Position numbers and translations under genes: made by a program. Shown one piece after another: positions 17,010 through 55,015 of a DNA stretch of 64,000 nt. Each line of letters begins with the position of its first letter. Positions within the stretch are counted from its first letter, which is position 1. Under the pieces are notes generated by a model, which saw only the letters and a list, made by a program, of their open reading frames with translations, made no database searches and was not told the DNA's origin. Where the stretch lies: positions 434,001 through 498,000 of the forward strand of contig JAEBUN010000011.1 in NCBI GenBank assembly GCA_023014365.1, written 5' to 3'. This DNA comes from Lepiota brunneoincarnata (taxonomy: Eukaryota; Basidiomycota; Agaricomycetes; Agaricales; Agaricaceae).

Positions 17010-17030
17010 TGTAACAAAGGGGGTGAATAT

Positions 17031-19582: not shown

Positions 19583-20828
19583 CAGTAGGGTAGCAAAAGT
19601 TTTGCGAAAATCTGTCACATGACCTCGTTTAACAATAAACGAAAAATATTCCCACTGATCAACAACTCCACCCTACATGCCAAAAATAGCTGGACAAAAG
19701 AATACTGTCCCTGAACTACGCTCCCTGATATGTGCAAGGCATCAGGAGGGTATTCCTGCTCGCGAAATTGCCAATTTCTTTGGAGTCCATATTTCCACTG
19801 TCTATCAGGTTATCCATAGGCACAAAGAGCAGGGTCATCATGAGGATGCTCCCAGGTCTGGGAGACCTTCCTTATTGGATGACAGGGCAATGCGACACAT
19901 CAAAATTGTGCTGGAGAGAAATAGACGCCAAACTCTCCGCGAGATCACCCACACAATAAACACATTTCTCGACTCCCCTGCTCATCCCCACACTATCCGG
20001 CGTGCCATTAGGTATCAATTGGGTCTTAGCCAACACATTTCTGCAAAGAAACCATTTCTTAAGCCTTCCCATGTCAAAGCCAGGATGGTATGGGCAAGAG
20101 AATATCGGAGGTGGATGGAGGAGGACTGGAGACATGTGATTTGGACAGATGAGGCTTCTGTGGAGATTGGAAAGAGTTCAAAGGTGGTTTGGGTATGGAG
20201 GAGACCTGGTGAGAGGTACACAGAAAGGTGTTTAACCCCTACTTTCAAGTCTGGAAGACAGAGTCTTATGATATGGGGGTGCATGGCACATGGAAAACTC
20301 GGTCCACTGGTTCGTATACCCAAGGGTGCAAGGACAGCTGCAGATTATATTAGCCTCATCCTTAGTGGACCATTATGGGATTTTTATGGGAATTTATCAG
20401 AGGAGAGGGGGCAGGTAGCGGTGATGGAAGATGGAGCTCCAGTCCACCAGGCAAAGATCACCCGACAATTCCGCAAATCCCATCTCATCAATGAGCTTCC
20501 ACACCCAGCTCAGTCACCAGACCTCAATCCCATCGAACATGTATGGAGATACCTCAAAGTCAGAATAAATGACCGAGCAGAAATCCCCCAAAACCTTGAC
20601 AAACTTTGGGAGGCAATTCAGGAGGAGTGGAGGATGATTGATATAAATTATATTAATGACCTGGTCAAGAGCATGCCCGATCGTGCTCAGGCAGTCTATG
20701 AGGCCAAGGGCCACCATACAAAATATTAACATAATTTTAGATGCAGTTGTGGTAGTGTAGTGAATATTTTTAACGATTAATGCATTATTTGTCTTTGTTG
20801 TTTTCGCAAAACTTTTGTTACTGTACTG
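19583..20828 (+). mobile_element. Tc1-type DNA transposon, apparently intact
   Basis: 1,246 bp with imperfect terminal inverted repeats sharing CAAAAGTTTTGCGAAAA near each end, flanked by TA at 19,581-19,582 and 20,829-20,830, the expected Tc1/mariner target duplication. It encodes one uninterrupted transposase and sits inside the 3' LTR of the copia element. Confidence 0.97.
19677..20729 (+). CDS. Tc1 family transposase
   Basis: 350 residues, full length for the family. The N-terminus holds a paired helix-turn-helix (ARHQEGIPAREIANFFGVHI; SGRPSLLDDRAMRHI) that should bind the terminal repeats. The catalytic triad is visible: Asp in VIWTDEASVE, Asp in VMEDGAPVHQ and Glu in LNPIEHVWRYL. The last two are separated by 34 residues, so this is the DD34E (Tc1) class. 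There is no intron, stop or frameshift. It cuts and pastes its own element and may be active. Confidence 0.96.
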   Translation: MPKIAGQKNTVPELRSLICARHQEGIPAREIANFFGVHISTVYQVIHRHKEQGHHEDAPRSGRPSLLDDRAMRHIKIVLERNRRQTLREITHTINTFLDSPAHPHTIRRAIRYQLGLSQHISAKKPFLKPSHVKARMVWAREYRRWMEEDWRHVIWTDEASVEIGKSSKVVWVWRRPGERYTERCLTPTFKSGRQSLMIWGCMAHGKLGPLVRIPKGARTAADYISLILSGPLWDFYGNLSEERGQVAVMEDGAPVHQAKITRQFRKSHLINELPHPAQSPDLNPIEHVWRYLKVRINDRAEIPQNLDKLWEAIQEEWRMIDINYINDLVKSMPDRAQAVYEAKGHHTKY

Positions 20829-35836: not shown

Positions 35837-36010
35837 CGGGGCACCTGGCAAGGCATCGGGCCAGGTGCTGATTCTTGCGCGAGGGCAGACATGTGACGCG
35901 GTCACAACTACGGGGGAACTCCCCCCCTTCACTCCTACTCCCACCTCGCTACCCGTTTTCGATTTCACACGTACACCACACACTAGCCAGCGCCCTTTTC
36001 AAAAAACATC

Positions 36011-36688
36011 ATGCCGAGACAACCTCGACCTTTTACTCGGCGTGTGAGCGCAATGCCCAAACGAGACCTGGTTTCCCTAGCTCGCCGACTCCAACTTGAC
36101 CAACAGCTCACCAACAATGGCACCGTCATCCAACTTCGCAACGCCATTAACCAGCACCTACAAACACACCCAGAATTGGCACAAGACCCAACATATCAGG
36201 GTCTATACCCAGTACGCAACAGAACTTGCCAAGTCCCTGTTCCTGGCCCCTACAGACCTAGAACTCACTCCCCGTCAACTGAATCAGAATGGCCCACATG
36301 GAATGGTATTCAATCATCACCTAGAACATCACTACCACCATCACCACCACCACCATCATCACCACCAAGAACACCAAACCGACCTCTCCAACCACCCTCC
36401 ATCAACCCTCCTCCCCAGCCTCTCAACAGCTGGAACCAAAACTTTATCAATGATCAGAACCCCCCAAACATACCATCCCCACTGAATACCCCCCAACCAC
36501 AACAAAATACCCCACAGCCACATCCAAATACTCCCCAAGCACAAGAGAATACACAACAACAACAGATACACATAGCCCAACTACAACAAAACTGCAGTAA
36601 GCCCTCTTTTCAACCCCCCCCCCCCTCCCCTCCTCCCATCCTTCCTTGCGCATTGTCATTTTCAATGGCCAGACCTTTACAAACCTGA
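36011..36688 (+). CDS. Retrotransposon ORF1, gag-like
   Basis: ATG-started 225-residue frame. The N-terminal 65 residues form a compact SAP-like helical segment (KRDLVSLARRLQLDQQ; NGTVIQLRNAINQHL), which would suit nucleic-acid binding. The remainder is Pro/Asn/Gln-rich low complexity (a CCACCATCA-rich tract at about 36,325-36,370). The position, first ORF of the element, suggests gag. The family assignment is inference. Confidence 0.6.
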   Translation: MPRQPRPFTRRVSAMPKRDLVSLARRLQLDQQLTNNGTVIQLRNAINQHLQTHPELAQDPTYQGLYPVRNRTCQVPVPGPYRPRTHSPSTESEWPTWNGIQSSPRTSLPPSPPPPSSPPRTPNRPLQPPSINPPPQPLNSWNQNFINDQNPPNIPSPLNTPQPQQNTPQPHPNTPQAQENTQQQQIHIAQLQQNCSKPSFQPPPPSPPPILPCALSFSMARPLQT

Positions 36689-36901
36689 CCAAATTCCTTT
36701 CCTGAGTTCATATATTCATGATGCTTCATGGGCCTTACATACCCAAATACCTATGGGTACATACACACCAGTCTCCCCAATCATTAGGGGTTGACACATA
36801 TGAACCATCACATTCACCCTTTTACTCACTATTGGTCTATGCACCAAAGTCCCAAATGGTTCAATACCAACTTCTACTGGTCCCCATACCTTAATTACAT
36901 A

Positions 36902-36936
36902 GCCCCCCCCCCCCCCCCCCCCCCCCTTTTTTTTTT
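36902..36936. repeat. Poly-C / poly-T homopolymer tract
   Basis: About 25 C followed by about 10 T inside the untranslated part of the retrotransposon. Such tracts are prone to length error in sequencing. Confidence 0.9.
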
Positions 36937-37131
36937 ATATACCCAGGGCCTAAAAGGCGATACACCTATGGGATTATTCATACTATAATTCGAATGGCCT
37001 AATAATCCCTTCCCTGTACCTCCTTGTTGTCCTGCCACATTAATGCGGACCAGATACTTTCAACATCATGATTGTTTACCTCTACAAAACTATTATCCTA
37101 AATTATAAATGAAAGAACTCACCAAACCAAC

Positions 37132-37695
37132 ATGACAGACCACCTCATCATAGACCCCTTTGCCCAAGAGCGTCACACTGAGAACCCCCCACAGATGCTA
37201 CCACAAAAGGGACATCCTTGCATTATCTCAGGCTTCACAGGGAAGGCCTCTCCCTTTATCATCCCAGAAACTATACAGGCCAAAATACGAAAAGGCTGGA
37301 ACAAACATCTTTCCCTAACATACCTCACCAACAAGAACTGTACCCCTGGTTGTGACCCCATATCCACCAACCCTGAATATACAGTCAACAATAACACCGG
37401 TGTCCTCCTATCTGTAGATAAACCATTGAATGACATGAATGAACATGGACTTTCATTTGACAAATGGCACCAGGCTTGGCCCTGTCTTTTAGATCTCCTC
37501 CATTTATACATCCCAGACATCCATACAGCCTGGAGCCAGCACTTCCAGCAAATTTTAACCACCTCAGACCGTGCTGCCAAATGGGACTCTTGGCGAGAAT
37601 ATGACATCACTGTCAGAAGGCAGTCCATCATCCTCCCAATTGATCCCACCCTCTTCCATTGCAAGATCTGGGATGATGTCACTTCCAAACCCTAA
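37132..37695 (+). CDS. Retrotransposon gag-like continuation (second ORF)
   Basis: 188-codon frame with ATG (MTDHLIIDPFAQERHTENPP) ending at TAA. It contains Trp- and charge-rich sequence (DKWHQAWPCLLDLLHLYIPD; RAAKWDSWREYDITVRRQSI) like the capsid region of DIRS-type elements that precedes RT. It is separated from ORF1 by about 440 bp of broken frame, so ORF1 and this segment may once have been one gag. It shows no recognised enzymatic motif. Confidence 0.55.
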   Translation: MTDHLIIDPFAQERHTENPPQMLPQKGHPCIISGFTGKASPFIIPETIQAKIRKGWNKHLSLTYLTNKNCTPGCDPISTNPEYTVNNNTGVLLSVDKPLNDMNEHGLSFDKWHQAWPCLLDLLHLYIPDIHTAWSQHFQQILTTSDRAAKWDSWREYDITVRRQSIILPIDPTLFHCKIWDDVTSKP

Positions 37696-38000
37696 CTCAT
37701 TGAGCATTACAAATTGTTCGAAATGATCTAGTAAATAAGTCCATGTTGAAACAAGCTCAAGAGGGTGGATAAACGGCAACGTATATTGGCAAGAGCAAAA
37801 CAACAGCAGGGTGGGGAGTAAACAGACAAGGGTATCTACTCATAGACTAGGTGCATATATTCTAGCTACGGCGTGGCATCCGTGAGGCAGTCATGTGATC
37901 TTGGAAGTCAGCATTCCATCAGTTTGCTGAAATCACCAATTCCTACAGTCCACCCCCCAAAGAGGCTCACCATCAAAATATACCCCTTATATAACTCAAA

Positions 38001-39323
38001 GTGATCCATCTACGCAATTTCCACAAACAAATTGGAAGTCTCCACACTGTTGTTTTCTCTGCAGGGACTGAAATCATGCATCATGACAATGTACAGCTAC
38101 CATGCTCATCTCTGGAAAACCATTGGTCCTCCAAATGGGACCTGATGGAAAACGCTGAGATTCCAAAGGAAAAACATATTGTTTTTCATGGAATGGTATC
38201 TCAGGATGCTGAGGTGGATGTAATTGCACCCAAGGAGATCACAGATGCAGCCTCTGTCAAGGACCTGGACATGGAGCACAATCGTGCAACCTCATCTGAT
38301 TTCTTACTGATCTCAACCCCACTTCATGCATATGCCTGGGAGAGAGAACTTCGTATAGCAAACCTGTTCCATATCTTTTCTGATGTACCATATAGTATCT
38401 CACATGGTTTTGACATGGGAGTCCAATTGAAAATACTACATACCTTTACTCCACTTAATCACGTGTTGGCCTGCAACAATCCCCAAGTAATTGAGAGTCA
38501 CCTCAAAAAAGAGCTTCAGGCAGGCTGCTACATAGGACCCTTCTCTCGTTCACAGCTCAAGCTAATCATTGGTCCCTTCCGTACCTCTCCTTTTGGAACT
38601 GTACCTAAATCCAACTCAACTGAAGAGTTCCACATAATCCAAGACCTATCCTATCCACAAGATGACCCATCTCATACTTCAGTCAATGCCGAGATTGACC
38701 CTGACCAATTCCCATGTGACTGGGGAACCTTCTACCAGATATATGAGATCATTCACAATGCCCCTCCCAATTCCCAGGCTGCCACAATGGACGTTGATGC
38801 CACCTTCCGCTGCTGTCCCATTATTCCTGAACAACAGCCACACTTCATAACCCAATGGAACAATCTCTTCTACATTGATCATAATGCCCCTTTTGGGGCA
38901 TCCAGCTCAGGAGGAATTTTTGGCTGCCTAGCAGACGCCATGACAGCCCTAATCAGGCACTACACAAATTCACCTTGCGAGAACTGGGTAGATGACTTTG
39001 TCCTCTTTCGCTTTCCCCTCCCAACAACAAACTCAGAAGAACCCCCACATTACAAATATGACCTCACCACCATCTATCAATTGGCAGAAACCCTGGGATG
39101 GCCCTGGAAACCATCCAAAACACATCCTTTCAATGCCCAATTCAAGTACCTTGGATTCATATGGGATCTCAATGCCAAGACCATAGAAATTCCGGAACAT
39201 AAGAAAAACAAATATATACAGAAGCTGTCACCATGGCAGGTACCAAAACCCTGCTCACGAAAAGAGACTGAATCCATCCTCAGCACTTTAGTCCACTGCT
39301 CACTAGCCCTTCCTGATGGCTGA
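38001..39323 (+). CDS. DIRS/Ngaro-type reverse transcriptase
   Basis: Continuous 440-codon frame. RT motifs: PFRTSPFGTVPKSN, FHIIQDLSYP, MDVDATFRCCPI (motif A with catalytic Asp), HNAPFGASSSGG (motif B) and WVDDFVLFRF (motif C with the Asp pair), then the thumb-like FKYLGFIWD. The frame stops at a TGA (39,321-39,323), but the same frame continues into RNase H, so the stop is a mutation inside a longer protein. Confidence 0.9.
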   Translation: MIHLRNFHKQIGSLHTVVFSAGTEIMHHDNVQLPCSSLENHWSSKWDLMENAEIPKEKHIVFHGMVSQDAEVDVIAPKEITDAASVKDLDMEHNRATSSDFLLISTPLHAYAWERELRIANLFHIFSDVPYSISHGFDMGVQLKILHTFTPLNHVLACNNPQVIESHLKKELQAGCYIGPFSRSQLKLIIGPFRTSPFGTVPKSNSTEEFHIIQDLSYPQDDPSHTSVNAEIDPDQFPCDWGTFYQIYEIIHNAPPNSQAATMDVDATFRCCPIIPEQQPHFITQWNNLFYIDHNAPFGASSSGGIFGCLADAMTALIRHYTNSPCENWVDDFVLFRFPLPTTNSEEPPHYKYDLTTIYQLAETLGWPWKPSKTHPFNAQFKYLGFIWDLNAKTIEIPEHKKNKYIQKLSPWQVPKPCSRKETESILSTLVHCSLALPDG

Positions 39324-39947
39324 TCTTGCCTACCCACCATATCTCATTTTGCAGCTTCCTTCAATGGAAAATCACACTTCTCAAGGTGGACCCCGGATTC
39401 GGCCATTACCCATGATATCTGATGGTGGATAACTCATTTGCAGTACCCCTTTTGTGGTTCACCAATACTCACACCACCCCCACTGTCCAGTACCGAATTT
39501 TGGGTAGACACATCCACCTCCTGGGATATTGGTGTGATCCTAGATAAAGAATGGGACTCCTGGAAGCTAGCTGAGGGATGGGACAAACATCCTGCCCAGA
39601 AAATTGGATGGGCTGAGATCATTGCAGTTGAATGTGGCCTCAGATTAGCGGTCCACAGAGGCTACTTGAATTTGCACCTTACTGTCAAATCAGATAATAC
39701 TGGTGTCATAGGGGCAATTCAAGGCAGGAAATCCAAGAACCCGGAACACAATCTAGTCTTACAACAAATCACCACATTCCTCCGTACATACACACTATGG
39801 ATCTCACCCCTTTACATTCCTTCCAATTCTAACTTAGCAGATAAACCCTCCCAAGGAATCCCTATCAACCAACTCACTTGTTCATCAGATACCATTTCCC
39901 TCCCTGACATTTTAACACCCTTTTTAATACCCCAACCACTTCTATAA
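39324..39947 (+). CDS. DIRS/Ngaro-type RNase H
   Basis: Same frame as RT after the TGA at 39,321; another TGA lies at 39,419-39,421. RNase H-like landmarks are FWVDTSTSWDIGVIL, WAEIIAVECGLRLAVHRG, VKSDNTGVIGAIQGR and SNLADKPSQG, supplying the Asp/Glu/Asp catalytic residues. It ends at a TAA; a degraded linker precedes the recombinase. Confidence 0.85.
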
Positions 39948-40144
39948 AATTTGTGTCCTCTCACAATAACAGATTACCTAATCATATACCTGAGAAAACT
40001 AAAAACACTCACACCAACTCAATACCTTGAACCAAGCACCAAATGCCAACATGTCAGACACCCTGAAACGCAATACCTATTGCCCGTCTCACACATACCC
40101 CTAGGCAACTTGAACCCTTATCTCCTACACAATTAACCCCCTCC

Positions 40145-40396: not shown

Positions 40397-41697
40397 TGAT
40401 ATGCTGATTTCACGCCTATACATGAATTCTGTACTCCGGAATGATTCTCTACATAGAATCATTGGCTATATCATTAAAGAACTCTATAGAGGATTGGTAC
40501 TATATCCTGTAGTAGCCAGTTCAACCGAACTGAGGATATTTGAGCCTCGGAAGTGTTCAAACCAGCTCATTATCACTAAGCTTAGTGAACCAAGCTATCA
40601 GAACACTCTCCGGAGGGATTCAGGACTCTACATAGTCTATCGAGTATACCCCGGTCGCATCAAGGGACCTTACGAGCAGTTTTCTGATGAACCCGAATGC
40701 GTTTGAACATAAAAGAATGTACCTAGTGGCTGTCACAGGCGTATTATGTCTATAGCGAGTTCAATAATGATGACCGGACCACGGAATGGAACGTCCAATG
40801 TTCGGGAGGCAATACCCGATGCCCAAAACCCTAGAAATATCAAAGACTCCTAATTAACAAGTGCTTTGTGGGTCCCGGCACTTCAGCATTCTGCTTAACT
40901 GAGATTAATTACAACGGATCAAGGGATTGTCCATCCGCTATACATTCCAATCATAATTGATCTGGAAACTTAACGCGCTTGCGTGGATGCAGAATAATGC
41001 AGACGAGCACAGAACACGTCTAGCTGGATTGCCATTCGTTAATCAGAGAAAAACCCATAACCCAGGGTGAGGTAGAAATGCTGCCGAACCTTCCAAAATG
41101 TTCTACAGTGCCTGTAACAATTAAGCTTATTGTTTTCTATTTCATATTTACTATCTCTCGTATGTATCTAAACAATATAAATACGGTTGCACTTGTTTGT
41201 GGAGAAGCAAGAGGTCTCACCCCTGCTTCCACATGCAAGTCTGCGAGCCGTGATCAAGAACGGTTTCAGAGGGCTATTTAGTGTGCATCGTTAAGTGTGA
41301 TTTCTTCAGTCGTCGACCAACCCAGAGACAGAGACAGAGACCAGAGTTCAGAGTTTAGAGTTCCAGAGTGCTAGAGACAGAGACAGAGACAGAGACCAGA
41401 GTTCAGAGACCAGAGACCAGAGACCAGAGACCCAGCACTTTGAATTGACAGGGATTGTCCTTTCATTGCTGCACCGTACGGCTAAGATAACTTCAACGGC
41501 TGTTTGTTAACCTCTAAAAACACTACTCTCTTGAATTTCACTGTCAGAACGCACCCCCAGAACACCCTAAAAGACAAAACTGTTCATTATCTATCTCATT
41601 CCACTTGTATTAGCTTAAGCTTATCGAATTGCGGCTAAGCTTAGTGAAAACAAGCCCACTATCTATATTAAAACCTACGAAAGTTTCTACCTTTTCA
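40397..41697 (+). repeat. Gypsy 5' LTR
   Basis: 1,301 bp. It has about 55 bp more than the 3' LTR in an AGAGACC-type minisatellite at about 41,323-41,432 (repeat units CAGAGA, CCAGAG). It contains four TAAGCTTA octamers (40,578; 41,122; 41,616; 41,636). Confidence 0.95.
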
Positions 41698-41699
41698 TC

Positions 41700-41717
41700 T
41701 GGAGCCCACCGCGAGGG
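41700..41717 (+). promoter_or_regulatory. Putative gypsy primer-binding site
   Basis: TGGAGCCCACCGCGAGGG begins two bases after the LTR end. TGG is what a tRNA 3' CCA would pair with. I could not assign the tRNA. Confidence 0.5.
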
Positions 41718-42262
41718 GGGTTTTCAGTTGAATTTCACGAGACAAACACCAAAAGACTTGGACACTGGCCCGCCTTTCACCTGCAAAGCAGAAAAAGGTT
41801 CAAGCAAAGACCGTAAAGTCACCCAAAACATCCTTCGAGAACAGTCTCAGGAAGGTCGACCCCCCAAAACAGAGAACTACTCGGAATTCCAATCGTCCAG
41901 AAGGTTCTGAAGGCCTCATCGCCGCTAGTACCTCTCGAAAGCGAAAAGATCCCGTTAACTCTTTAGCTGTGAACACAGCGAGTGGTTCAGCAGTTGCAGT
42001 ATTGAGAGAAGTCGCACCGCCAACCTCTACTGCTCCCAGAATTACTATAAGGCTTTCAGCCTCAGCTCGCAACATAGCGCATATTCTGCACACCGAAAGC
42101 CAGGATGGTCAGACCGTTCCTACCCTAAGCTTAGCGTTTACAAACCAAAACTTGTTTCATACAAACCCTCCTGGTGCCTCTACAGTACCACAGATATCAC
42201 AGTCAACTCCGACTGTACAGACAAACCAAACTACGCCGTCTACGACGACTACAGCTAGTAAA

Positions 42263-43744
42263 ATGGGACACGAGCATATGCCAATTCCCTTTAGCAATAA
42301 TGCTCCCAGATGGGATGCATCAAAACCACAGACATTGAGAAATTATCTTTGGACGCTTGAATGGCTCTTCACGATAACAAAGATGACGGACGATGCAGAA
42401 AGGATAAATTGGGCAGTGTCATATGTGGACCAGGATATTCATGAAGAGTGGATGAGTTTTGCGGAGTTCCCAGCAGGAAGCTGGACAGGCTTCATAGAGA
42501 GATTGAAGAAAGAGTATCCCGAGACTGTGGCAGCCGAGCAGGGCTCAGTACGACAATTGAGGGAACTCTGCACAGAGAGTAGAGGCATTGCGATGAATGA
42601 GGAGCATAGAGTCTTGGACTTCAAAAGGCGATTCATTCTAGAAGCAGAGAAGTGCCTGAAGTCGCTGGCGGTAGTCTCGAACTGAGAGCTAGTCGAGTTA
42701 TTTACGAGCGCACTGGACTCTGTGTTCCAGGACATACTCAATGCGAGATTAGCGATCACCGGGGCGCATAGAACCACGAGTGACAGGTCGGCACTAACTG
42801 CGAAGGATTTACACGAAGAGGACCCCTATGATTGGAGGATCGTCGTGGATAAAGCCATCGAAATTTCGATTGGCAAAACACTTATGCGATCCCTTCATCA
42901 GGATTCAAGGCCGGTGAACTTGGCATCAATGAGCCATCCACCTGCAACGTCCGGAACAGGGACTTATGACCCTGTAGTAAAGCAAGAGCTGCAAAGCTTA
43001 AAACAGAAGTTTCAGGATGAAGTCTCACAGATGGCAGGCGGTCTCGCTGAGCTTAAGGACCTCATGAATATCCAGGGGCATACTTTAAAATCATACTTAG
43101 AGAGTTTGGCGAAAGAAGGACATAATCATGCCGGTTATAATCACGCTCAGAGGAATACCGGAAGTGGGTCGGGAGGGTCGCTTTCCGACCGCAAGTGTTT
43201 CTACTGCTGGTTATTAGGGCATAGTTGGTTATTCTGCCTGGACATGGAGGCAGATAAACAAGCTGGCCGAATTAGAGTCGAAGGGAACAAAATATATATG
43301 GGAGATGGCTCGAGTATCCCTCGAGGAGAAGGGCCTATTAAAGAGAAAGTGGCAAAGTACTATGCGACAAAGGGACAACTCTTCGTTCAGATACCAGAAC
43401 TGCCGGAGGTTGAGCCTGAGTTACCGCAAGTGCCAACGTCAGCGGTGTTTGCACAGAGAGCGTTCCCAAGGTCAGAAAACCAAAGGTCACCAGCGGAAGA
43501 AGAAGTCCGCCATCTGAAGCAGTGCATGGAAATGTTGGAGACAGCTGCCATCCACGCCAGGAGTGCCCCAAAGGTTAAGCTTATGACCAGAAAGGATGAT
43601 AATGTCGAGATACAGTCTTTGGCCGAGCAATTGGCCCAGATACAGGCTAAGCTTAGTGGTTTGACGGATGGTATGCCCTCGGCAAGCCAGTATTTGGACA
43701 CCAGGAGTGGCGCAAAGACTTGGAACTTGGAGTTGGGTTTCTAA
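42263..43744 (+). CDS. Gypsy gag, interrupted by one TGA
   Basis: The first ATG in the frame is at 42,263 (MGHEHMPIPFSNNAPRWDAS). Capsid region: LRNYLWTLEWLFTITKMTDD, WMSFAEFPAGSWTGFIERLK. A TGA at 42,683-42,685 interrupts, and the same frame continues to TAA at 43,742 with ELVELFTSALDSVFQD, a coiled segment and a CCHC knuckle (CFYCWLLGHSWLFC, spacing C-x2-C-x4-H-x4-C). Gag coats the RNA and builds the particle. The frame is open upstream to about 41,739 but has no earlier ATG. Confidence 0.88.
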
Positions 43745-44853
43745 AGGGTTCGAGGAAGGAGCCGGCTCTGAAGAAGAAGGTCACCTTCGCCAGAGGACAG
43801 ACTCCTGAGGACGCGTCGGATTCCGAGCGATCAGAAGAATCAGAAAATGAGGAAATAGGGCAGACAACGGAGAAACCAATGTGTGCTGCAGCAGGAGAAT
43901 TACCATATAGAAATGTGAAACCACTGCGCCCGGTCGTTGAGGTACCACCACTGCCTGTCAGAAGGATGGAACCATCCAAGAAGGAGCCTGCATATAAGCA
44001 CCAGGCCCCTATAGAGAGGAATGTTGATGTTGAGGAAGTACTCAGCAGGGTATTGAAGCGAGAAGCCTCAGTATCGCATGGAGAACTCTTGGCATTGCCA
44101 CCGATATACAGGAATGCTTATAGAGAGCGCATTATGAGAAAACGGGTACCCACAAGTCAAAGCTTAATAGCAGGAGTAGGGCCCGGGGACGATGATACAG
44201 AAGATATAGAGATTAATAGTGGGCCAGTACAAGTCATGATAACGGAGTTGGCAGACGGCTCTTGGAAGTATGATACGGTGCTCCGAGAAGGCTCGGCAAC
44301 CCAAGCCTGGGTAGCTCAGGATCCAATCATGCAGTACTTGGAGTCACTGCCCCGAAGAGACAGGGGACGGCAAGTGTTTATTGCAAAAGAATGCGAGCCG
44401 TTGAGAGTAGTGCCAACTCTGATAAATGGGATTTGGCAGGAAGAGGCCTTGCTAGATAGTGGGTCACAGATTGTCTCCATGAGTCAGGAAGCGGCGATTG
44501 CATGTCAAGTTTCTTGGGACCCAGATACTACGATAAATTTGCAGAGTGCGAATGGGCAGGTTGAAAAGACTTGTGGATTGGCAAAGAATGTAGGCTTTAC
44601 CTGTGGGGGAGTCACAATCTATTTGCAAGTTCACATCGTTCGTAGCCCCGCGTATCGAGTACTCCTGGGACAACCCTTTGATGTAATGACGGCTAGCAAA
44701 GTCAGGAATAGCGCCAGTGGCGAGCAAACCTTGGTTATTACGGACCCAAATACCAGAGAAAGGGCTGTGTTACCAACTTATGCTCGAGGAGAGTGTAATC
44801 CTCCTAAGCTTAGGGAAAACAGTCAAAATTTTCAAGAAACCTCGATGAGTTGA
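43720..44853 (+). CDS. Gypsy protease region
   Basis: The frame is shifted by -1 against gag and overlaps its end, as expected for -1 ribosomal frameshifting. Lys/Glu-rich linker (KKKVTFARGQTPEDASDSER) followed by a retropepsin-like domain with the catalytic site LLDSGSQIVSMSQE, then SPAYRVLLGQPFDVM. Cleaves Gag-Pol. Ends at a TGA (44,851) and overlaps the RT frame, again by -1. Confidence 0.85.
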   Translation: MELGVGFLKGSRKEPALKKKVTFARGQTPEDASDSERSEESENEEIGQTTEKPMCAAAGELPYRNVKPLRPVVEVPPLPVRRMEPSKKEPAYKHQAPIERNVDVEEVLSRVLKREASVSHGELLALPPIYRNAYRERIMRKRVPTSQSLIAGVGPGDDDTEDIEINSGPVQVMITELADGSWKYDTVLREGSATQAWVAQDPIMQYLESLPRRDRGRQVFIAKECEPLRVVPTLINGIWQEEALLDSGSQIVSMSQEAAIACQVSWDPDTTINLQSANGQVEKTCGLAKNVGFTCGGVTIYLQVHIVRSPAYRVLLGQPFDVMTASKVRNSASGEQTLVITDPNTRERAVLPTYARGECNPPKLRENSQNFQETSMS

Positions 44854-46496
44854 CTGAGGGACAAGGAGAGGTGGCTTGTATAATAGACTATGATGATGAG
44901 AAGGGCCCTGTCGTCGCACAAACACTAAGCTTAGCAAAAGGAAGCTTCTCAGAGGCCGAGCTACAGCTAATGTTCATTGACCGAGTTATACACGATGAGG
45001 ACTGCCCACAGGAAGATAAAGCAACGGCGTTATTGTGCCTAGGATGCATAGCCAATGCGCAGGGCACAGAGGACCAGGGAATAACTGTCTTCGAAACAGA
45101 AGAAGATGATGAAGATACGGTACAATGCCTAGCTGGGAAGAAATATAAACCAGTAGCCTTAAAAGTGAGGCCAGTGTTGGGTGATCTACCGGAGAGATTC
45201 AGGATAAAACAAGAAATAAAAGGGGACCCACTGGCAGAAATGCCTGAGCTTAGCGTGCATCCTCCAGAGTTTGTCCTGACAGGCAGATATACGGAGGAGT
45301 GTAAGCTTAAGCTGGACGAAGCCCATGCAGGGGATTTCTTGTGGCCAGAGGAAAGAAAGCTGATGCACCACATCATGATGCTTCAAGAAAAGGCATTCGC
45401 CTGGACAGATGAGGAAAAGGGATGTTTTAGGGAAGATTTCTTCCCGCCGATCGAGATACTGATGGTAGAACATACTCCATGGGTTGAGAAGCCCATTCCG
45501 ATTCCACCAGCAATCTATGATGAAGTTTGTGCCATTATAAAGAGAAAGATTAGTGCTGGTGTATACGAGCCATCAAACTCATCCTATAGATCCAGATGGT
45601 TCTGTGTGGTGAAGAAAGATGGGAAAAGTTTGAGACTGGTACACAGCTTGGAACCGCTGAACAAAGTGACGATAGCGCATTCAGGACTGCTGCCAGCAAT
45701 GGAAGATTTGGCAATGCACTTCGCAGGCAGAGCTTGCGGAGGCATTCTGGATCTATATGTTGGCTATGACAAACAACTGTTAGCTGAGTTGTCTCGGGAC
45801 TTAACAACGTTCCAGACGCCTTTTGGAGCGCTACGCTTAGTGACATTACCCATGGGATGGACCAATTCAGTGCCTATATTTCATGAGGATGTAACAGCGA
45901 TCCTAACCAGTGAGATACCAGAATACACGATGCCGTACATAGGTGATGTACCTATCAGAGGACCCAAAACTAGATATGAGTTGCCAGATGGCACGGAAGA
46001 GATGCTGAAAGAAAACCCAGGGATCCGACGATTTGTATGGGAACACATGCAGATGGTCAATAGGATTCTACAGAGGATGAAATACGTAGGAGGAACCTTC
46101 TCTGGGCCCAAGACGACTATCTGCACTGATGAAATCACCGTAGTGGGTTTTGAATGCTCTTATAAAGGACAGTTGCCTGCCACAGACACCATTGGGAAGA
46201 TATTAAGATGGGGGGATTGCGAGAATGTCTCTGAGCTAAGGGGTTTTCTAGGAACAGCTACGCGCTGCAGGAATCATATCCCGAAGTTCATAGCCATTGC
46301 TGCACCTCTATACGAAAAGCTTAAGAAAGGGCAAGAGTTTGAATGGGGAGAAAATGAACGGAAAGCACAGCAGGAGCTGAAAGATGCAATTCAACGCTGT
46401 TTCCCGACCAGGAACCCCAAATTCCCAAGTAAACAACCCATAGTAGTAGCCATGGATACCTCATGGAGGGTGGTGGGATACTACATATATCAGTGA
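44850..46496 (+). CDS. Gypsy reverse transcriptase (altered active site)
   Basis: RT motifs: AGVYEPSNSSYRSRWFCVVK, LRLVHSLEPLNKVTI, GGILDLYVGYD (motif A Asp), LVTLPMGWTNSV (motif B) and PYIGDVPIRGP, where the expected YIDD reads YIGD, a one-base change (GAT to GGT) that should abolish polymerisation. Then FSGPKTTICTDEITVVGFEC and LRGFLGTATRCRNHIPKFIA. Ends at a TGA (46,494-46,496) in the middle of RNase H. Confidence 0.9.
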   Translation: MTEGQGEVACIIDYDDEKGPVVAQTLSLAKGSFSEAELQLMFIDRVIHDEDCPQEDKATALLCLGCIANAQGTEDQGITVFETEEDDEDTVQCLAGKKYKPVALKVRPVLGDLPERFRIKQEIKGDPLAEMPELSVHPPEFVLTGRYTEECKLKLDEAHAGDFLWPEERKLMHHIMMLQEKAFAWTDEEKGCFREDFFPPIEILMVEHTPWVEKPIPIPPAIYDEVCAIIKRKISAGVYEPSNSSYRSRWFCVVKKDGKSLRLVHSLEPLNKVTIAHSGLLPAMEDLAMHFAGRACGGILDLYVGYDKQLLAELSRDLTTFQTPFGALRLVTLPMGWTNSVPIFHEDVTAILTSEIPEYTMPYIGDVPIRGPKTRYELPDGTEEMLKENPGIRRFVWEHMQMVNRILQRMKYVGGTFSGPKTTICTDEITVVGFECSYKGQLPATDTIGKILRWGDCENVSELRGFLGTATRCRNHIPKFIAIAAPLYEKLKKGQEFEWGENERKAQQELKDAIQRCFPTRNPKFPSKQPIVVAMDTSWRVVGYYIYQ

Positions 46497-47537
46497 GATG
46501 GAGAAGACGCTAAGCTTATACATTATGCGAAGTTTGGGTCAATATTATTGGATGAGAGACAGCAGAGGTATTCTCAGCCCAAGCGAGAGCTATGTGGCTT
46601 AAGAATGGTGCTGGAACAGGAGAAATATTTATTGTGGGGATCGAGAAATCTAGTAGTGGAAACAGATGCAAAGTTTCTCTTTGGGATGTTAAACAACCCA
46701 GGAAAACTCCCAAATGCTACTGTAAACTGTTGGGTGGACTTCATTAGATCGTTCCACTTCACACTAGTACACAAAGAAGGAAAGACATTTGGGCCGGATG
46801 GACTGTCCAGACGACGTTACTATCCCGGTGATGAGACAGCCCGTCGTTTTGACGACGGATCCGAGGATGAGGGAGAGGAGTTCGAGTTGATCAAAGAAGA
46901 TCCGGGGGCTGCAGATCCGTTACCCTTGGAAGCCTTCTGTGATGAGATTGACAGTCACTCTGGCTTCTACCAGGGTCTGGCGCGTGATGTGTATGATTTT
47001 GAGTATGAGCTGGATCAAGCTCGGGAAGAGTACTTGGATGAACAACAGGCTAAGCTTAGGGTTATAGAAGACCCAGCCTGTCCAGAAAACCATCGACAAG
47101 TACTAAGCTTAATAATGGATGTCAGGCTAGTGCCAGATTTCGAAAAGGAAAAGTCAACCGAGATAGAGGAAGCATATGATGAGTTGCGCAGGACAGATAC
47201 AGCGCGAATACAGGACAAAAGAATACCCAAAGTCAGGGAATACCTGAAAACAGGGGGCAGTAGCGCAGCTGAAGGCTTGGATGAGCCGGATCTGCGTAAG
47301 CTTAAGCATATGGTGGAGCATTTCTTCTTGGACGAAGAGGGGAGACTGTATAGGATGAGCCCTAGTGGTCAGCATCAGCTAGTAGTGGATAAGGAGCAAC
47401 ATATGTATATGTTGCGAGCCAGCCACGACTTCCTAGGACACAGGGGAATATACGCAACCACTAAGCTTATAATGCAGAGGTTCTGGTGGCCGGAAGTTGA
47501 AGGAGACATAACTTGGTATGTGCAATCGTGCCATCTA
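46497..47537 (+). CDS. Gypsy RNase H and integrase N-terminus
   Basis: Same frame as RT after the TGA. RNase H: RYSQPKRELCGLRMVLEQEK, VVETDAKFLFGML, WVDFIRSFHFTLVH, GPDGLSRR. A charged linker leads to the integrase zinc domain (HDFLGHRGIYATTKLIMQRF, QSCHLC), which is cut at 47,537 by the 698-bp solo LTR. Confidence 0.88.
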
Positions 47538-48235
47538 TGTTATGATCCGTGCTCCTTCTGTATCCGAGGATAACTGGAGACGGCCTTCAATCACTCTACA
47601 AGGTGTCCGAGACGGTTGGCCTTATAGAGCTTAGTGGATCGCGCTCAATGAGATAACGAGGGAAGACGCCAAGTTAAGGCAGAGAGGTAAACGACCACTG
47701 TTAACAAGATTAAAGCTTGAGGCTTTAATCTCTACTTGTACAGGCCTTATATACCTATGAGGTGCTATATACTCGTTATAGGTTACTTGGCTGTTCTACT
47801 GGTTGTGCGCAGTCCTGACCATGATGCACATCCTGGCTGATGGCATCCTAGCGTTATTTATATTACAATGAGTCAGTACTCTCGCTACTGCTGTGCGATG
47901 TTCCATTGCTTTCCTCTGACTCATAATCTTCTTCTCCCGATTGTATCTCCATGGAGTCTTCTTCGTTCTCGCTCTCCATTCTCTCAGTGCTTCCATCCGT
48001 ATCAGAGGTTGGGTCGGTTGATCCATGGTTATCTTCCTCGTCCTCGGGGTATTCCAATATATCCTCCAAGGTTATCTCCATTCCTGCTTCTCTTGCCAGG
48101 TCCTGCATGGTGGTATAATATTCCCCTTCCTCGTCTTCGTATTCTTGTGCCCATAGTTGGTCTGTAGTCTCCTGTACCCATCTTGTAAAGTCGAACAATA
48201 ACTCTTGTTCCTCCCGGTCTGGACTGTTCATAACA
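47538..48235. mobile_element. 698-bp solo LTR (family L698), copy 2, inside gypsy integrase
   Basis: Same length and ends (TGTTATGA...TCATAACA) as copy 1 at 14,928-15,625. Flanked by ATCTA on both sides (47,533-47,537 and 48,236-48,240). Removing it restores the integrase HHCC zinc finger. The copies differ by roughly two dozen changes by eye, all transitions. Confidence 0.95.
47863..48231 (-). CDS. Acidic 122-residue reading frame inside the L698 LTR, copy 2
   Basis: Same frame, start and stop as copy 1 (15,621-15,253), with six amino-acid substitutions. Acidic and Ser-rich, no recognised domain. The start codon is the ATG in the LTR terminus TGTTATGA. Confidence 0.45.
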   Translation of the reverse strand: MNSPDREEQELLFDFTRWVQETTDQLWAQEYEDEEGEYYTTMQDLAREAGMEITLEDILEYPEDEEDNHGSTDPTSDTDGSTERMESENEEDSMEIQSGEEDYESEESNGTSHSSSESTDSL

Positions 48236-49302
48236 ATCTATGCCAGCAACGGCAAAAGGCGATCATCAAGACGCCGCCAATAGTAACGCCCACACCGTCG
48301 ATATTCCAAGTGCTACATGTGGACACACTACATATGACGCCAAGTTCTAATGGGTGTAGTTATATTGTGCATGGAAGGTGTGGACTGTCATCCTGGATGG
48401 AGGCAAAAGCTTTGAGAAAAGAGAATGCTAGTTCGATTGTGCAGTGGTTATTTGAAGATATCATTTGCTGATGGGGCTGTATAGTGAAGATTGTCACGGA
48501 CAACGGTTCTCCATTTAAGAAAGCTGTTCGATGGCTGGAAGAAAAATATGGGATAAAAGGAGTAACGATATCTCCTTACAATTCCAAAGCGAACGGGATT
48601 ATTGAAAGAGCCCACTGGGATGTGCGGCAAATGTTGTACAAAGCTACAGATGGAGATGTCAAAAAGTGGTATTGGCACCTACCGCACGTTATGTGGGCAG
48701 ATCGGATAACCATTAGAAAAGGAATGGGGTGTTCCCCGTACTTTCTGGTAACCGGAGCACACCCGACGCTACCTCTGGATGTCAAAGAGGCCACTTGGCT
48801 AGTACAACTACCAAATAAGTACTTAACCACAGCCGAGTTGATAGGATACCGAGCTCAGGCTTTGGCAAAACATGTTCGGCATGTTGAGGAGATGCGTCAG
48901 CGTGTTTCAGACACTAAGCTTAGCAAGGCTTGGGAGATGGAACAACAAGCAGCACATAAGATAAAAGATTATCGCTTCGGCCCGGGAGATTTAGTATTAG
49001 TGAGAAACACAGCTATAGAGAGCTCAGTGGACAGGAAGATGAAACCCAGGTATCTAGGACCCATGGTGGTCATATCTAGATTGAAGGGAGGATCATATAT
49101 CCTGGCAGAGTTGGATGGCTCTGTATGGCAGAATAAAGTGGCGGCGTTCAGAGTAATTCCCTACTTAGCCAGAAAACATATGCCGTTGCCGCTGGAGTTA
49201 CAAGAGTTGTTAGATCTGTTGCCAGAGGGACTGAAGACCCTGGAGGAGACTACTGAGGATGAGCCTAGTGACAGATGGGAGCCAGAAGAGTTGGAGGGAT
49301 AG
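48236..49302 (+). CDS. Gypsy integrase
   Basis: Continues the zinc finger after the solo LTR. Catalytic core: VLHVDTLHM (first Asp), a TGA at 48,469-48,471, [12 protein letters not shown] (second Asp) and [15 protein letters not shown] (Glu), giving the D,D(35)E triad. The C-terminal domain ([31 protein letters not shown]) is the usual GPY/F-type chromatin/DNA-binding module. Ends EELEG at 49,302. Confidence 0.9.
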
Positions 49303-49378
49303 AAAAAACCTGATATTGTGGACAGAACTATCTACTTATCGAAGGAAAACTATCCTGGGGACTGTAAAAGTGTTAAGC

Positions 49379-50725
49379 TTAAGCGGGGGAGGACTTGTCC
49401 AAGTCGGAAAGGTTGCGCAAAAGGCTTTTGAGATGGATGCGCTCTTGAATGAGGAATTGGAACCTCTTTAAGTTGGCTTCGAGCGAGGGAATAGCATTGA
49501 TGAAGTCCCGGCTGAGCGAATTGAGGTTGCATTTGACTGACCGAGCGTCGTCACCGCGAGATTCGGATTCATACTTGTCACAAGAGTGAGACAGGAGGTT
49601 TTGGAATTCCTGGAGCAAACGAGCTGCCCGGGAGAAGTGTCAGTACTGTTAAGCTTAGTGAAGAGAAGTGAGAAATTGCCCACCAGATAAGCCCGCAAAG
49701 GTGCGCTCATCGGAAGCAGACTCGGTACGGGCGCGCTTGGCAGTATTGGCGCTGGCTTTGGCTAGAACCTGTTCAGCCCAGACATAACAGCAGTGTTTAG
49801 TGTTCATATTGGGAACTTGACAATAGGAAAGAAGACGGACGGTGCCTTTAGACGATGAGGACTTTTTGACAGTCTCCTAAAGAGGGAGGAAGTCAGAATC
49901 AGTGGTTGGGGGGAGTGGAGCTGGCGCACCACGTTGGAGGTAGACAAACGACGCTTGCGATAAGGTGAGACTACACAAACCTCTTCGACGATAGCTTGAG
50001 AGACCTCCTCATCGACCATCATGTCCTGGAGGCAAGCAATTATCTCAGCCAATGTAATAGGTTGAGAAGCAGCTATATTACCGTGTCAGCACCAGTTGCT
50101 CGGGAGTTGGAAGCACTGGTCATACTCTCAGCAAGCTCAGTATCGGTGTCTACCACAACAGCAGCAGAGACAGGGGCCTTGCGACCTTTGCGAGGCTAAG
50201 CTTATACATGAGGAGACGATTGGAGCCAAAAGAACGCTAAGCTTACGTGTTTGGGGACAGCAGAGCCTTCGGCAATGTTGGAGGAAGTAGAGCCAGTTGT
50301 GGACGACGGGTTCTGAGCCTCTTTGGTCCTGGATTTGTGGGATTCTTCAGAATGAATGCGATTAATGCGGCTACAGCATTCAGAGAGCACCTTATAGATC
50401 GCGGGCATCTCATAAGACGAATGGTAGTTGTTTTGGTAAATTTCGTAGAGCTTGCGGATACGGAAGACGTAGTCCTGGTTGACATGAAGCTTGATAGCCT
50501 CATTATCCTCCGATAACGCTTCAATATAAGCAGACTAGAAATGATTTAGAAACGGCAAGAGAAGCATGGAAAGAGTAGACATACCCCAGGGGCGTCAAAC
50601 GCAAGGAGAGCCTTCTCGACGAGGGGACAAGCGACTTGGCCGTTTTGCAGGCGCTGAAGATGACCTTTGGCGTTGCTGATGAGATCGTCGAGCTCAACCT
50701 GGAGATGGGGGATAGAAGAAGCCAT
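49379..50725 (-). CDS. Antisense gene X of the gypsy element, unknown function, 341 residues
   Basis: Six exons on the strand opposite to gag-pol: 50725-50585, 50534-50247, 50195-50082, 50025-49981, 49876-49684 and 49623-49379, all GT-AG. The lengths sum to 1,026 bases (342 codons) with no internal stop, which supports the model. The protein starts MASSIPHLQVELDDLISNAK and is mostly helical (SAYIEALSEDNEAIKLHVNQ, IYKVLSECCSRINRIHSEES), with a Ser-rich stretch, a Cys/His cluster (YCQVPNMNTKHCCYVW), a basic patch (KRART) and a helical end (LLQEFQNLLSHSCDKYE). I do not recognise a domain. The octamer TAAGCTTA overlaps both splice sites of intron 2, lies in the last intron and overlaps the stop codon. 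It is placed between integrase and gene Y. Confidence 0.65.
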
Positions 50726-51411
50726 TTTCTTGCGAAGGGTGTCTGCTAGAATGAGGTGTCGCTCCCTCGCTTTTATAAGAAAAGGCCGTAGGCAGTGATG
50801 ACAAATCATAACGAGTGGATGAAGAGCACCCTCCACCCTAAGCTTATGACCTGAGGGGCCTAGAAAACCTGTAATCTTGAGTAGCCAGCCTTCAACAGAC
50901 TTGCTGAACCACAGTTGCCTTATTAGGTAACATGTCGCCAGGGTCTCGTGGTTATCAGTGTGCACAGGGATTCTGATGGAACGGTGAGGGCACCGAGTTC
51001 AATTTGGCTAGGGGGAGATGGGCCCCAAGTGGCGCAAGTGGCGCTTCAGTTTTGTTTGACACGACCTTTTTTGCGGCGAACACCATGTACAGGCTGGTTC
51101 GGGTCCGGACTTGTAAGAAAACCAGAATGGATGACCGGGTCACTACGCATTGCGGGTCACGGCACGCTGAGATGTCAATAAACATCACTGATAGATCAGA
51201 GAGGCATATAATGAGTATATAAGTGACTGGCAACATAAACTAGCTTAGGAGTCTCCCAGGAGGTCTTTAGCTTAGCTTTAGGAGATGACAAGAAAGTCAG
51301 AAACAGTTTAGCTTAACTCAGTAGGAGACAAGGAACAACAAGATGACTATTGGGATGTATATACATGACAAGATTATATACTACATCCAAGAAGTAAACT
51401 AGGCGCAGAGA
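50726..51411. other. Spacer between antisense genes X and Y
   Basis: Should hold the promoter of X (right side) and the terminator of Y. One TAAGCTTA at 50,839, about 115 bp upstream of the X start, and a cluster of related half-sites TAGCTTA / TTTAGCTTAA at 51,240-51,315. Confidence 0.45.
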
Positions 51412-53442
51412 TCACTCAAGGTCTTCTAGAACAGACTCCGGATCCTGAGTCATCGGGAAAGCGAGGAAGAGAAGCGATTTGAGCTCCTCAAATTCCTCGT
51501 ATGTTGGGACCCCCGGAAAGTTGTTGGCGAACTCAAAGAACGCCCAGACGTCTTCAAGGGAGTCGGCCATACCCATCTCTACAAAAGCCACGTTGTTACC
51601 GTCCAAGGCAGTCCTGGTAGCTTGCATCTCCTGGACGAATTGGTAAACTACACGGCGGTGGTGAAACGCCGAAGCCTTGTAAGCAACGCGGTTCGCCTCC
51701 AGGCTGACCAAGCTAGAGGACACAACACGCATGAACGCAGCCAGATCTAGAAAAATAAAGAGAATAAGAAAAGGGAAAAATAGTGAACAGAGAAACTTAC
51801 GGTATTCACTGGTCAGTGAGGATGTGACCAGGGCATTCACAACGCCGGCCAAAACCCGGGGATGGTCCGCGAAGGTACAAGGATAGTTGTACAAGTCGCA
51901 GCTGCGACACTTCTTACCCTTGCCCAGAGGCTCGCACTCCAACTTACGAGCAGCGCAAGAAGGACACCGAGACCGAGGTGGCACGTACTGGAGCAGATGT
52001 CAAAGCCATCAGTAAGGAACTACGAGAAAACTTGGAGAACGTACCGAAAGCTGGCTAGCTGCCAGCAGCCTAGGAAAGTCCTCACAAAAGAGCAGGACTG
52101 GGTGCCGGTATCCATGGTCCCGAATAATTTCGGCCTCAGAGCGCTGAACGCAAGCCCAGGGAACGTATTTCTTCATCCGCGTGTTGGAACTCTTCTTGGA
52201 CGAAAGGACGCATTGTTGACGTGACAGGCCAGCATGAGGGGACTCTTGAGGGATCTCCGGAACCACCGGGCTAGGCAAACGAGAAAGGACGGGGGTCGGA
52301 GAAGCTAAGAACGCGTCTTGAAAAACAAAAGTCGGTTCTTGAGGGGCAGGCGAAGGCTCCAGAAGGAGCTCCAAATCTGGAGAAGGAGAAATCTCCACAG
52401 CGCTTGCGGGAGACTCGACTGGAGCGCCAGCTAAGTGAGGTGGTGATGGTGTTGGGCACCTAGGCAAAGCCAGCACATGTTGCCCATCCAGAGAAGAGGA
52501 CCAGCTAAAGATTTTGAAGAGGTCAGCTTGAGAGACCTCAGGGACTGGAGAACGTGATGACGAGTTAGAACCCGCCAGGAATAAGGGGAGAGGGGGCGGC
52601 ATTGATGATTTTGCCCTCTGTTTGCCTTTAAAGGCAGCTGGTATACGCGCTAAAGCAGAAGTCAGTGGAAAGAACAAATATATTGTGAAAAACGACTAAG
52701 CTTATGCGTTGAAGTAGCAGAAGAGAGTACGGGGGAAGAAGGCCAGTTTGTTGAAGGGCCCAGCACCTCCGAACCTGATGCAATACCCAAGGGAGGGAGC
52801 ACCAGCAAGTCTTCCTCGTCCAGGGTGCGCAGAGAGATGGCGAGAGGGGGCAGTGACATTGAACTGGACGAAGCCTCTGTGGATAATCCACCAGAGGGCC
52901 CGCCAACGGGGATACCTGATGAGGGTTCTGCAGAAAATCCGGCAGAGCGCTCGTCGGTTGGATTGCACAACGACACGATGGAAATCACGCGTCTTGGCAC
53001 TGGAGCATACAAGGGAGAGGCCAGTGGAGGAGTTGGTTCGCGGGGCGGAGAGTATGGTGGAGGAGGGGTCCTTGCCACACCCACCTGACAATTTCCGCGA
53101 GCTCCTCGAGCTCCTCGCCCTCCTCTAGCCCTCCTAGTACGCAGTGCTGGTGGTTCCCATTGAGGTAGGAGGTTGCAACGCACCGGGAGGCAAATAGTGA
53201 GACCTAAAAGTAGAGAAAACATAAGTAAAGACAACGAGAACAGGGGAAAACGCGACTTACGTTGCGCGATCGATGATGAAGGCGCGCCTTGGGAAGCTGT
53301 TGAGGCGTTGCTCGGCCCAGGGTAGCCTGAAAACAGTGTTAAGAAAACAGACAAAACTGTAACTTGAACTCTACTTACTGGAAGAAGAGTCCGAGTCCTC
53401 CTCGTAGCGAGCACGTTTGCTGCTGCACGTGTTTCTGTCCAT
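51412..53442 (-). CDS. Antisense gene Y of the gypsy element: Zn2Cys6 zinc-cluster protein, 588 residues
   Basis: Six exons on the strand opposite to gag-pol: 53442-53379, 53326-53261, 53203-52694, 52649-52045, 51987-51801 and 51746-51412, all GT-AG. Their sum is 1,767 bases (589 codons) with no internal stop. The N-terminus is basic and Ser-rich (MDRNTCSSKRARYEEDSDSS). A long Pro/Ser-rich, low-complexity middle follows, then CVQRSEAEIIRDHGYRHPVL. At about residue 419-450 lies CPSCAARKLECEP... with Cys spacing C-x2-C-x6-C-x8-C-x2-C-x6-C, the exact pattern of fungal Zn2Cys6 (Gal4-type) DNA-binding clusters. The C-terminus is helical (YKASAFHHRRVVYQFVQEMQ). It probably binds nucleic acid. The start lies about 330 bp inside the 3' LTR. 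One TAAGCTTA falls at the end of exon 3 and one upstream of the start (53,636). Confidence 0.72.
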
Positions 53443-53769
53443 TGTTGATAGAAGTGGGTGTTGAAAAGTGAATATGCGAGCAGGATAGACGAGTAAGAAG
53501 TGAGAGGGAGAACGAAGGAGATGAAACGAGACCTTGGGACATTTAAAAGACCCAATAAAGAGATAAAAATTTAAGCTATAGCAACAAGAAGTTGATCTAT
53601 ACATTTAAACTCGGTGACATGACATCATTCTGAAATAAGCTTAGCGAAAGTGTGCTACCCTCGAAGCTGGTGAATGTTCTAGACCATAGAGCGCATCAGA
53701 GAGACTCAGATACTGCGAATTTGAAGGAGATAATGACTGAGGACAGTCAGCAATTTGGTTAGGGGGAGA

Positions 53770-55015
53770 TGATACACCGATTTCACGCCTATACATGAAT
53801 TCCGTACTCCGGAACAATTCTCTACATAGAATCATTGGCTATATCATTAAAGAACTCTATAGAGGATTGGTACTATATCCTGTAGTAGCCAGTTCAACCG
53901 AACTGAGGATATTCGAGCCTCGGAAGTGTTCAAACCAGCTCATTATCACTAAGCTTAGTGAACCAAGCTATCAGAACGCTCTCCGGAGGGATTCAGGACT
54001 CTACATAGTCTATCGAGTATACCCCGGTCGCATCAAGGGACCTTACGAGCAGTTTTCTGATGAACCCGAATGCGTTTGAACATAAAAGAATGTACCTAGT
54101 GGCTGTCGCAGGTGTATTACATCTATAGCAAGTTCAATAATGATGACTGGACCACGGAATGGAACGTCCAACGTTCGGGAGGCAATACCTGATGCCCAAA
54201 ACCCTAGAAATATCAAAGACTCCTAATTAACGAGTGCTTTGTGGGTCCCAGCACTTCGGCATTCTGCTTAACTGAGATTAATTACAACGGATCAAGGGAT
54301 TGTCCATCCACTATACATTCCAATCATAATTGATCTGGAAACTTAACGCGCTTGCGTGGACGCAGAATAATGCAGACAAGCACAGAACACGTCTAGCTGG
54401 ATTGCCATTCGTTAATCAGAGAAAAACCCATAACCCAGGGTGAGGTAGAAATGCTGCCGAACCTTCCAAAATGTTCTACAGTGCCTGTAACAATTAAGCT
54501 TATTGTTTTCTATTTCATATTTACTATCTCTCATATGTATCTAAACAATATAAATACGGTCGCACTTGTTCGTGGAGAAGCAAGAGGTCTCACCCCCGCT
54601 TCCACACGCAAGTCTGTGAGCCGTGATCAAGAACGGTTTCAGAGGGCTATTTAGTGTGCGTCGTTAAGTGTGATTTCTTCGGTCATCGACCAACCCAGAG
54701 ACAGAGACAGAGACCAGAGTTCAGAGACCAGAGACCAGAGACCAGAGACCCAGCGCTTTGAATTGACAGGGATTGTCCTTTCATTGTTGCACCGTACGGC
54801 TAAGATAACTTCAACGGCTGTTTGTTAACCTCTAAAAACACTACTCTCTTGAATTTCGCTGTCAGAACGCACCCCCAGAACACCCTAAAAGACAAAACTG
54901 TTCATTATCTATCTCATTCCACTTGTATTAGCTTAAGCTTATCGAATTGCGGCTAAGCTTAGTGAAAACAAGCCCACTATCTATATTAAAACCTACGAAA
55001 GTTTCTACCTTTTCA
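53770..55015 (+). repeat. Gypsy 3' LTR
   Basis: 1,246 bp, TG...CA. Differs from the 5' LTR by one minisatellite length change and roughly 30 substitutions that I can see, essentially all transitions. Four TAAGCTTA sites at the same places as in the 5' LTR (53,950; 54,495; 54,934; 54,954). Confidence 0.95.

Follow-up and report, generated by a model that had tools for sequence, protein, structure and literature searches.

A palindromic octamer dispersed through a fungal Gypsy retrotransposon family, read as an array of putative regulator-binding sites

The DNA analysed here, the window, is a 64,000-base stretch of the genome of the basidiomycete Lepiota brunneoincarnata (C5:434001-498000 of the 55.6 Mb in 95 contigs that we searched). 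It holds a 14.6-kb Ty3/Gypsy long terminal repeat (LTR) retrotransposon at 40397-55015, in which the LTRs flank protease, reverse transcriptase (RT), RNase H and integrase in Gypsy order, and in which two spliced minus-strand genes, X and Y, sit between pol and the 3' LTR. The palindrome TAAGCTTA has 27 exact copies in the window, all within this element, 4 in each LTR and 19 internal. We read these octamers as a family-specific array of putative binding sites for a sequence-specific regulator, probably encoded by the element itself and acting much as VANC proteins do for VANDAL transposons, and consider this reading an even call.

Enrichment of the octamer

A first-pass annotation made by eye had reported the same total, the same division between LTRs and interior, and the absence of the octamer from the rest of the window, and the exact count agrees throughout, with 0 copies in the other 49 kb. 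Its start coordinates were exact for 22 of the 27 sites and off by 1-10 bases for five (40578, 44936, 46510, 47050 and 47103 become 40577, 44926, 46511, 47051 and 47104). Dinucleotide shuffles of the window gave a mean of 0.77 copies and a maximum of 3 (n = 100 shuffles). The 12-kb internal part of the element carries 9 one-mismatch copies beside its 19 exact ones, so the set does not resemble a decaying repeat. Spacing along the element is as if random, and tandem spread of the sites is not supported on that ground. The preference for C before and G after the octamer, claimed in the same annotation, is real for the adjoining base: 25 of the 46 half-sites (both sides of 23 sites, one LTR counted once) have C there, with a chi-square of 25 against 13 for the flank position next in strength. 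Given this preference, the site may be readable as CTAAGCTTAG.

Whether the octamer is equally common outside the family was checked by a count over the genome. The exact form occurs 5370 times, against 842 for a reversed control; this is a whole-genome total, not a family-only count, with positions known among the places listed. One-mismatch forms number 13,532 over 24 variants (a mean of about 564 each), and octamer density in the element is about 182 times this one-mismatch background.

Octamers within coding sequence

Twelve of the 19 internal octamers lie inside gag-pol coding sequence, where they use two phases, 1 or 2, and read as KL (9) or SL (3); in phase 0 the octamer is a stop. The pieces of gag-pol that we subjected to synonymous-codon shuffling contain 10 of these 12 octamers, and the shuffled versions had a mean of 0.11 and a maximum of 2 (n = 2000). 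Across the gag-pol pieces, AAGCTT encodes 10 of the 13 Lys-Leu pairs, even though CTT is a minor codon (21 of 207 Leu codons).

A sister family in the same genome, family B, offers a comparison with the family of the window, family A. Two families were compared in all, and the letters of family B are those of one copy, L069 (9.9 kb), which is 63% identical to family A over the piece at 44814-46493 that contains RT. At the 10 coding sites that can be aligned (2 of the 12 are not fully alignable), family B shows 4-6 mismatches to the octamer, the mean for all 8-mers being 3.5, and shares it at none. At most alignable sites the octamer substitutes aligned codons with no insertion, and site 44805 adjoins a small indel relative to family B. 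At 45302, family A reads R-K-L and most of the homologs listed read R-K-E or R-K-D; homolog P0087 also has R-K-L-K there, and the window copy itself has C-K-L-K.

The octamer sites thus look to be kept by selection on DNA and not on protein. This supports in part the earlier suggestion that the sites are kept as binding sites or processing signals, as selection at the DNA level is supported by the codon shuffle, by the comparison with family B and by conservation among copies. Processing signals are less likely: the octamer overlaps splice sites at two places, and its surroundings showed no RNA structure. Some pairs of sites share flanking sequence (over 32 bases, 46506 and 50192 agree at 81%, 43625 and 47028 at 75%), so that local copying may have contributed to their seeding. 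The first of these pairs lies at 46506-46537 in pol and at 50192-50223 in an intron of X, and its likeness exceeds the octamer alone.

Conservation and site turnover among copies

Conservation among family members was checked on 41 distinct copies of the pol region, and the sites are largely intact. These copies come from 60 pol loci (of the 19 dropped, going by the places listed, 18 were the same place twice and 1 was a further identical sequence), and copies unaligned at a site were omitted from that site's count. At nine of ten well-covered sites, the octamer is intact in 26/27 to 41/41 aligned copies: 26/27 at 43576, 38/38 at 43648, 41/41 at 44805, 40/41 at 44926, 40/40 at 46511, and 38/38 each at 47051, 47104, 47297 and 47462. 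Site 48915 is covered by one copy.

The remaining well-covered site, 45302, has been swapped. Here 13 of 41 copies have CAAGCTTA and carry the octamer at 45245 instead, 57 bp further upstream. The other 28 have it at 45302 and read TGAGCTTA at 45245; copies with both octamers or neither number 0/41. A further copy apparently has both, as the places C1:3271597 and 3271654, among the places listed, are spaced accordingly. The swap consists of single-base differences at both sites. The 13 swap copies are 99.4% alike, so it may have been one event.

Antisense genes and promoters

Both X and Y are open in gene models that we drew up by eye on the basis of open frames and splice sites; for the third intron of Y the donor in the right phase was used, the alternative splice choice giving stops. 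Y contains cysteines spaced C-x2-C-x6-C-x8-C-x2-C-x6-C, within the spacing rule of Zn2Cys6 (Gal4-type) clusters, C-x2-C-x6-C-x5-12-C-x2-C-x6-9-C. Searches of a protein database found, at their sensitivity, no homologs of X or of Y residues 335-557. Both genes recur in the genome, with at least 156 matches for X and at least 198 exon matches for Y. Together with the at least 79 scored matches to the RT protein (86-100% identity), these are lower bounds of matches and not whole-copy numbers. Among the matches listed, the last exon of Y is found at 71-99% in at least about 120 genomic places, about 12 of which contain a stop. In most X matches a single TAG stands where the second exon begins, and we read this TAG as the splice acceptor.

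Seven octamers fall in the antisense-gene region and none is fully exonic, although 57% of the 8-mers there are (P 0.003, on our own gene models). Two make up the splice sites of a single X intron; a second X intron, the X stop codon and a Y intron have one each; and the last two stand upstream of X and of Y. In the modelled X intron flanked by two octamers, these supply the 5' (GTAAGC) and 3' (TTAG) splice sites, motif and splicing signal sharing bases. At all three recognised promoters (LTR, X and Y) an octamer precedes a TATA-like box by 34-69 bp (P 0.0007 under random placement, post hoc).

Table 1 Features of the element and selected octamer sites, in window coordinates
Feature	Position	Strand	Description
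5' LTR	40397..41697	+	1301 bp, TG...CA, 4 octamers
Octamer	41122..41129		54 bp upstream of LTR TATA box (41176)
Likely primer binding site	41698..41719	+	TC then TGGAGCCCACCGCGAGGG, immediately after 5' LTR
gag-pol	41732..49299	+	Several open pieces, with protease, RT, RNase H and integrase H2C2; coding sequence holds 12 octamers
Alternative site	45245..45252		TGAGCTTA in window copy; TAAGCTTA in 13 other copies
Octamer in pol	45302..45309		Present in 28/41 copies
Gene X	49379..50725	-	Modelled with 7 exons, 317 aa, open
Octamer pair 50197 + 50238	50197..50245		Splice sites (3' and 5', respectively) of one X intron
Octamer	50839..50846		69 bp upstream of gene X TATAAAAG box
Gene Y	51412..53442	-	Open model of 557 aa in 6 exons
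Zn2Cys6-type cysteine cluster of Y	51877..51966	-	In exon 51987-51801
Octamer	53636..53643		Precedes weak TATA-like boxes of gene Y by 34-42 bp
3' LTR	53770..55015	+	1246 bp, 4 octamers

The gag-pol of the window copy is interrupted, and its pieces were searched separately: gag-asp protease and Integrase_H2C2 score above their curated cut-offs, RVT_1 and RT_RNaseH below theirs. RT homologs with an organism given, among the matches listed, are from Armillaria and Meripilus. The two LTRs are 96.8 and 99.1% identical in two blocks; they contain a 7-bp tandem repeat, CCAGAGA (41322-41432 and 54695-54750), and the 5' LTR has about 55 bp extra. The bases at 41693-41719, which take in the likely primer binding site, are identical in family B. 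No target-site duplication was found at the flanks of the element, and the window copy may therefore be a recombinant between copies. Searches of viral_contigs and genome_contigs found no public DNA relatives. Elsewhere in the window, a Copia element, its pol split into separate open pieces, lies at 15966-19410, adjoining an open Tc1/mariner-like (DDE_3) transposase at 19677-20729. The stretch 36001-40000 has a weak RT match at 38001-39323 (below cut-off), and its GC skew is strong at 36-38 kb (-0.39).

A different motif in the sister family

Family B, with at least 6 internal copies (87-100% identity) by RT search, has a single TAAGCTTA in its 9.9 kb. Its strongest gapped word is GTTANCTA, with 13 copies against 1.7 expected and a maximum of 7 (n = 200 shuffles); the score of 8.5 exceeds the maximum of 6.7 from 100 Markov simulations. 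In the coding sequence of family B, GTTANCTA has 7 copies against 1.0 and a maximum of 5 under synonymous-codon shuffling (n = 2000). The window's element has one, at 50924, and the whole window 2, where 5.2 are expected. Outside the discovery locus, 2 further GTTAACTA occur in 0.69 kb (P 7e-5, the interval ending just past the second copy), and 52 of the first 100 places listed form 20 like-spaced groups, as repeated LTR copies would. Another sequence, L070 (770 bases), adds no support: it contains one GTTAGCTA, a form that the 13 copies in L069 lack, and is free of GTTAACTA, GTTACCTA and GTTATCTA; judged by eye, it appears to begin with a fragment of another retroelement. Of the 13 copies in L069, 10 are on the pol-coding strand, perhaps in part because the reverse orientation brings stop codons.

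A homolog of Y in family B, suggested by eye, is not supported, as there is no alignment. After pol, family B has at least 3 short sense open reading frames (L069:672-1872, minus strand; 70, 99 and 73 aa) with a hydrophobic N-terminus by eye, which occupy the position of the antisense genes of family A.

Proposed mechanism

We hypothesize that the octamer is the putative site of a DNA-binding regulator, probably dimeric, and that the density of the motif would mark the retrotransposon family. The regulator would most likely be encoded by the element in antisense, by Y with its Zn2Cys6-type cluster, perhaps in partnership with X. Its binding to the LTR, X and Y promoters would activate transcription, and its binding along the entire body of the element would protect the copy from silencing. 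Promoter activation and body protection together would account for sites in both promoters and coding sequence. The different motif of family B suggests that each family could bear a mark that a separate DNA-binding protein recognises. A broader proposal, possible but somewhat doubtful, is that fungal Gypsy families independently evolved VANC-like self-recognition, with a private octamer throughout the body including coding sequence, an antisense zinc-cluster reader, and divergence by a switch of octamer.

Several results weigh against this interpretation. Zn2Cys6 proteins usually bind CGG triplets, and TAAGCTTA has none. Y scores below the curated cut-off of Pfam Zn_clus (E 0.12), and below that of zf-ChsH2 too (E 0.00028); no PDB chain matched it. 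The absence of a Y alignment in family B leaves a joint change of protein and motif unsupported, and the shared flanks of some site pairs mean that an independent origin is not required for every site. Seven testable octamers have a mean intactness among copies of 0.95, compared with 0.88 for 452 matched windows (P 0.09), and the difference is clearer (0.996, P 0.008) only after dropping the swap site; we regard this statistic as moderate and the site swap as the more telling fact. As for family B, its motif was discovered and first tested on one and the same sequence, and its best ungapped 8-mer scores 6.1, below the simulated maximum of 6.8. Three of eight overlapping window stretches outscore GTTANCTA (13 to 22) with simple-repeat words, the best of the remaining five scoring 7.2. 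Genome-wide on both strands, GTTAACTA (973) and GTTACCTA (749) fall below their reversed controls (2087 and 2694), so the family B motif is not enriched over the whole genome.

Alternative explanations

The main rival is that a host DNA-binding protein (an activator, an insulator or a centromere-type protein) recognizes the octamer and is exploited by the family, X and Y doing other things. The roughly 564 genome-wide copies of each one-mismatch variant make background sites for such a protein possible, and the octamers upstream of the element's promoters, like the usual preference of Zn2Cys6 domains for other sequences, would suit it. However, family B lives in the same genome with a lone TAAGCTTA and a motif of its own, and promoter use would not need sites spread over coding sequence and introns. 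We consider a host protein unlikely.

Quite improbable, in our view, is a signal at the RNA level, with self-complementary loops serving dimerisation or packaging of genomic RNA, or with octamers acting as splice or processing signals. The self-complementarity of the octamer, its use at both ends of one X intron, and the orientation bias of the family B motif (which stops may partly explain) are in keeping with it. Yet octamers in their natural flanks are unpaired to no greater degree than in shuffled ones (0.44 versus 0.47), and predicted hairpin loops hold 2 of 23, leaving RNA loops unsupported; the coding sites are in gag-pol, where no introns were seen.

Non-adaptive spread by micro-insertion, gene conversion or biased mutation is very improbable: shared flanks of up to 81%, the indel beside 44805 and a swap that could be a single inherited event speak for it, but the strong preference at the adjoining base only (over 23 sites), the replacement rather than insertion of codons at most sites aligned with family B, the scarcity of one-mismatch forms and the single-base differences at both swap sites speak against it.

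Relation to known systems

The first-pass annotation had named plant VANDAL transposons as a precedent in principle, their VANC proteins binding short dispersed motifs of the element itself and so countering silencing. The window element is not a VANDAL; VANDALs are MULE-type DNA transposons. The logic of self-recognition fits, because sister family B carries a different dispersed motif; the arrangement of the motifs does not, as there are no tandem arrays here and 12 of 19 internal sites are in gag-pol coding sequence.

According to the available parts of the sources, dispersed self-recognition motifs with an element-encoded binder have been described for plant VANDAL transposons; in Arabidopsis, short family-specific motifs at high density form a recognition code, and related families have different motifs (PMC5735166, PMC10398659). 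As in that system, the motif here is enriched in one transposable-element family, rare elsewhere, dense, and different in a related family (two families compared); some sites lie in introns or upstream of genes that the element carries, and there are extra element-encoded proteins. Whereas VANC motifs, in the portions of the report at hand, form tandem arrays in the same orientation in non-coding regions (PMC5735166), the octamers are palindromes at random spacing, most of them within coding sequence, and belong to a fungal Gypsy element. A meeting report, as available in part, mentions unpublished work suggesting that VANC structure and target DNA coevolve (PMC12859917).

Two families of plant LTR retrotransposons share other traits with the element, going by the accessible sections of their descriptions. 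Sireviruses (Copia) also have a high-copy, symmetric, element-specific motif upstream of the TATA box (PMC2829016); theirs mostly has a CGG-CCG core and lies in LTRs and before the ENV gene, forming CpG islands (PMC2829016), whereas the octamer is AT-rich and spread through gag-pol too. Retand elements (Gypsy) likewise have antisense accessory genes between pol and the 3' LTR, with predicted DNA binding, but their common antisense domain is TRP28 and not a zinc cluster; the sections to hand describe tandem-repeat arrays and do not mention a dispersed octamer (PMC11963269). A literature search for TAAGCTTA found the octamer in none of the papers covered, and searches on fungal, mushroom or antisense zinc-cluster retrotransposon regulators gave no counterpart among their results.

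If the proposal holds, a fungal retrotransposon motif that overrides codon choice, together with a sister family carrying another motif, would suggest a general rule. The element would then make it possible to study, in a clean and testable setting, how self-marking protects mobile elements from silencing. With a short list of motifs, families could be spotted from word counts alone.

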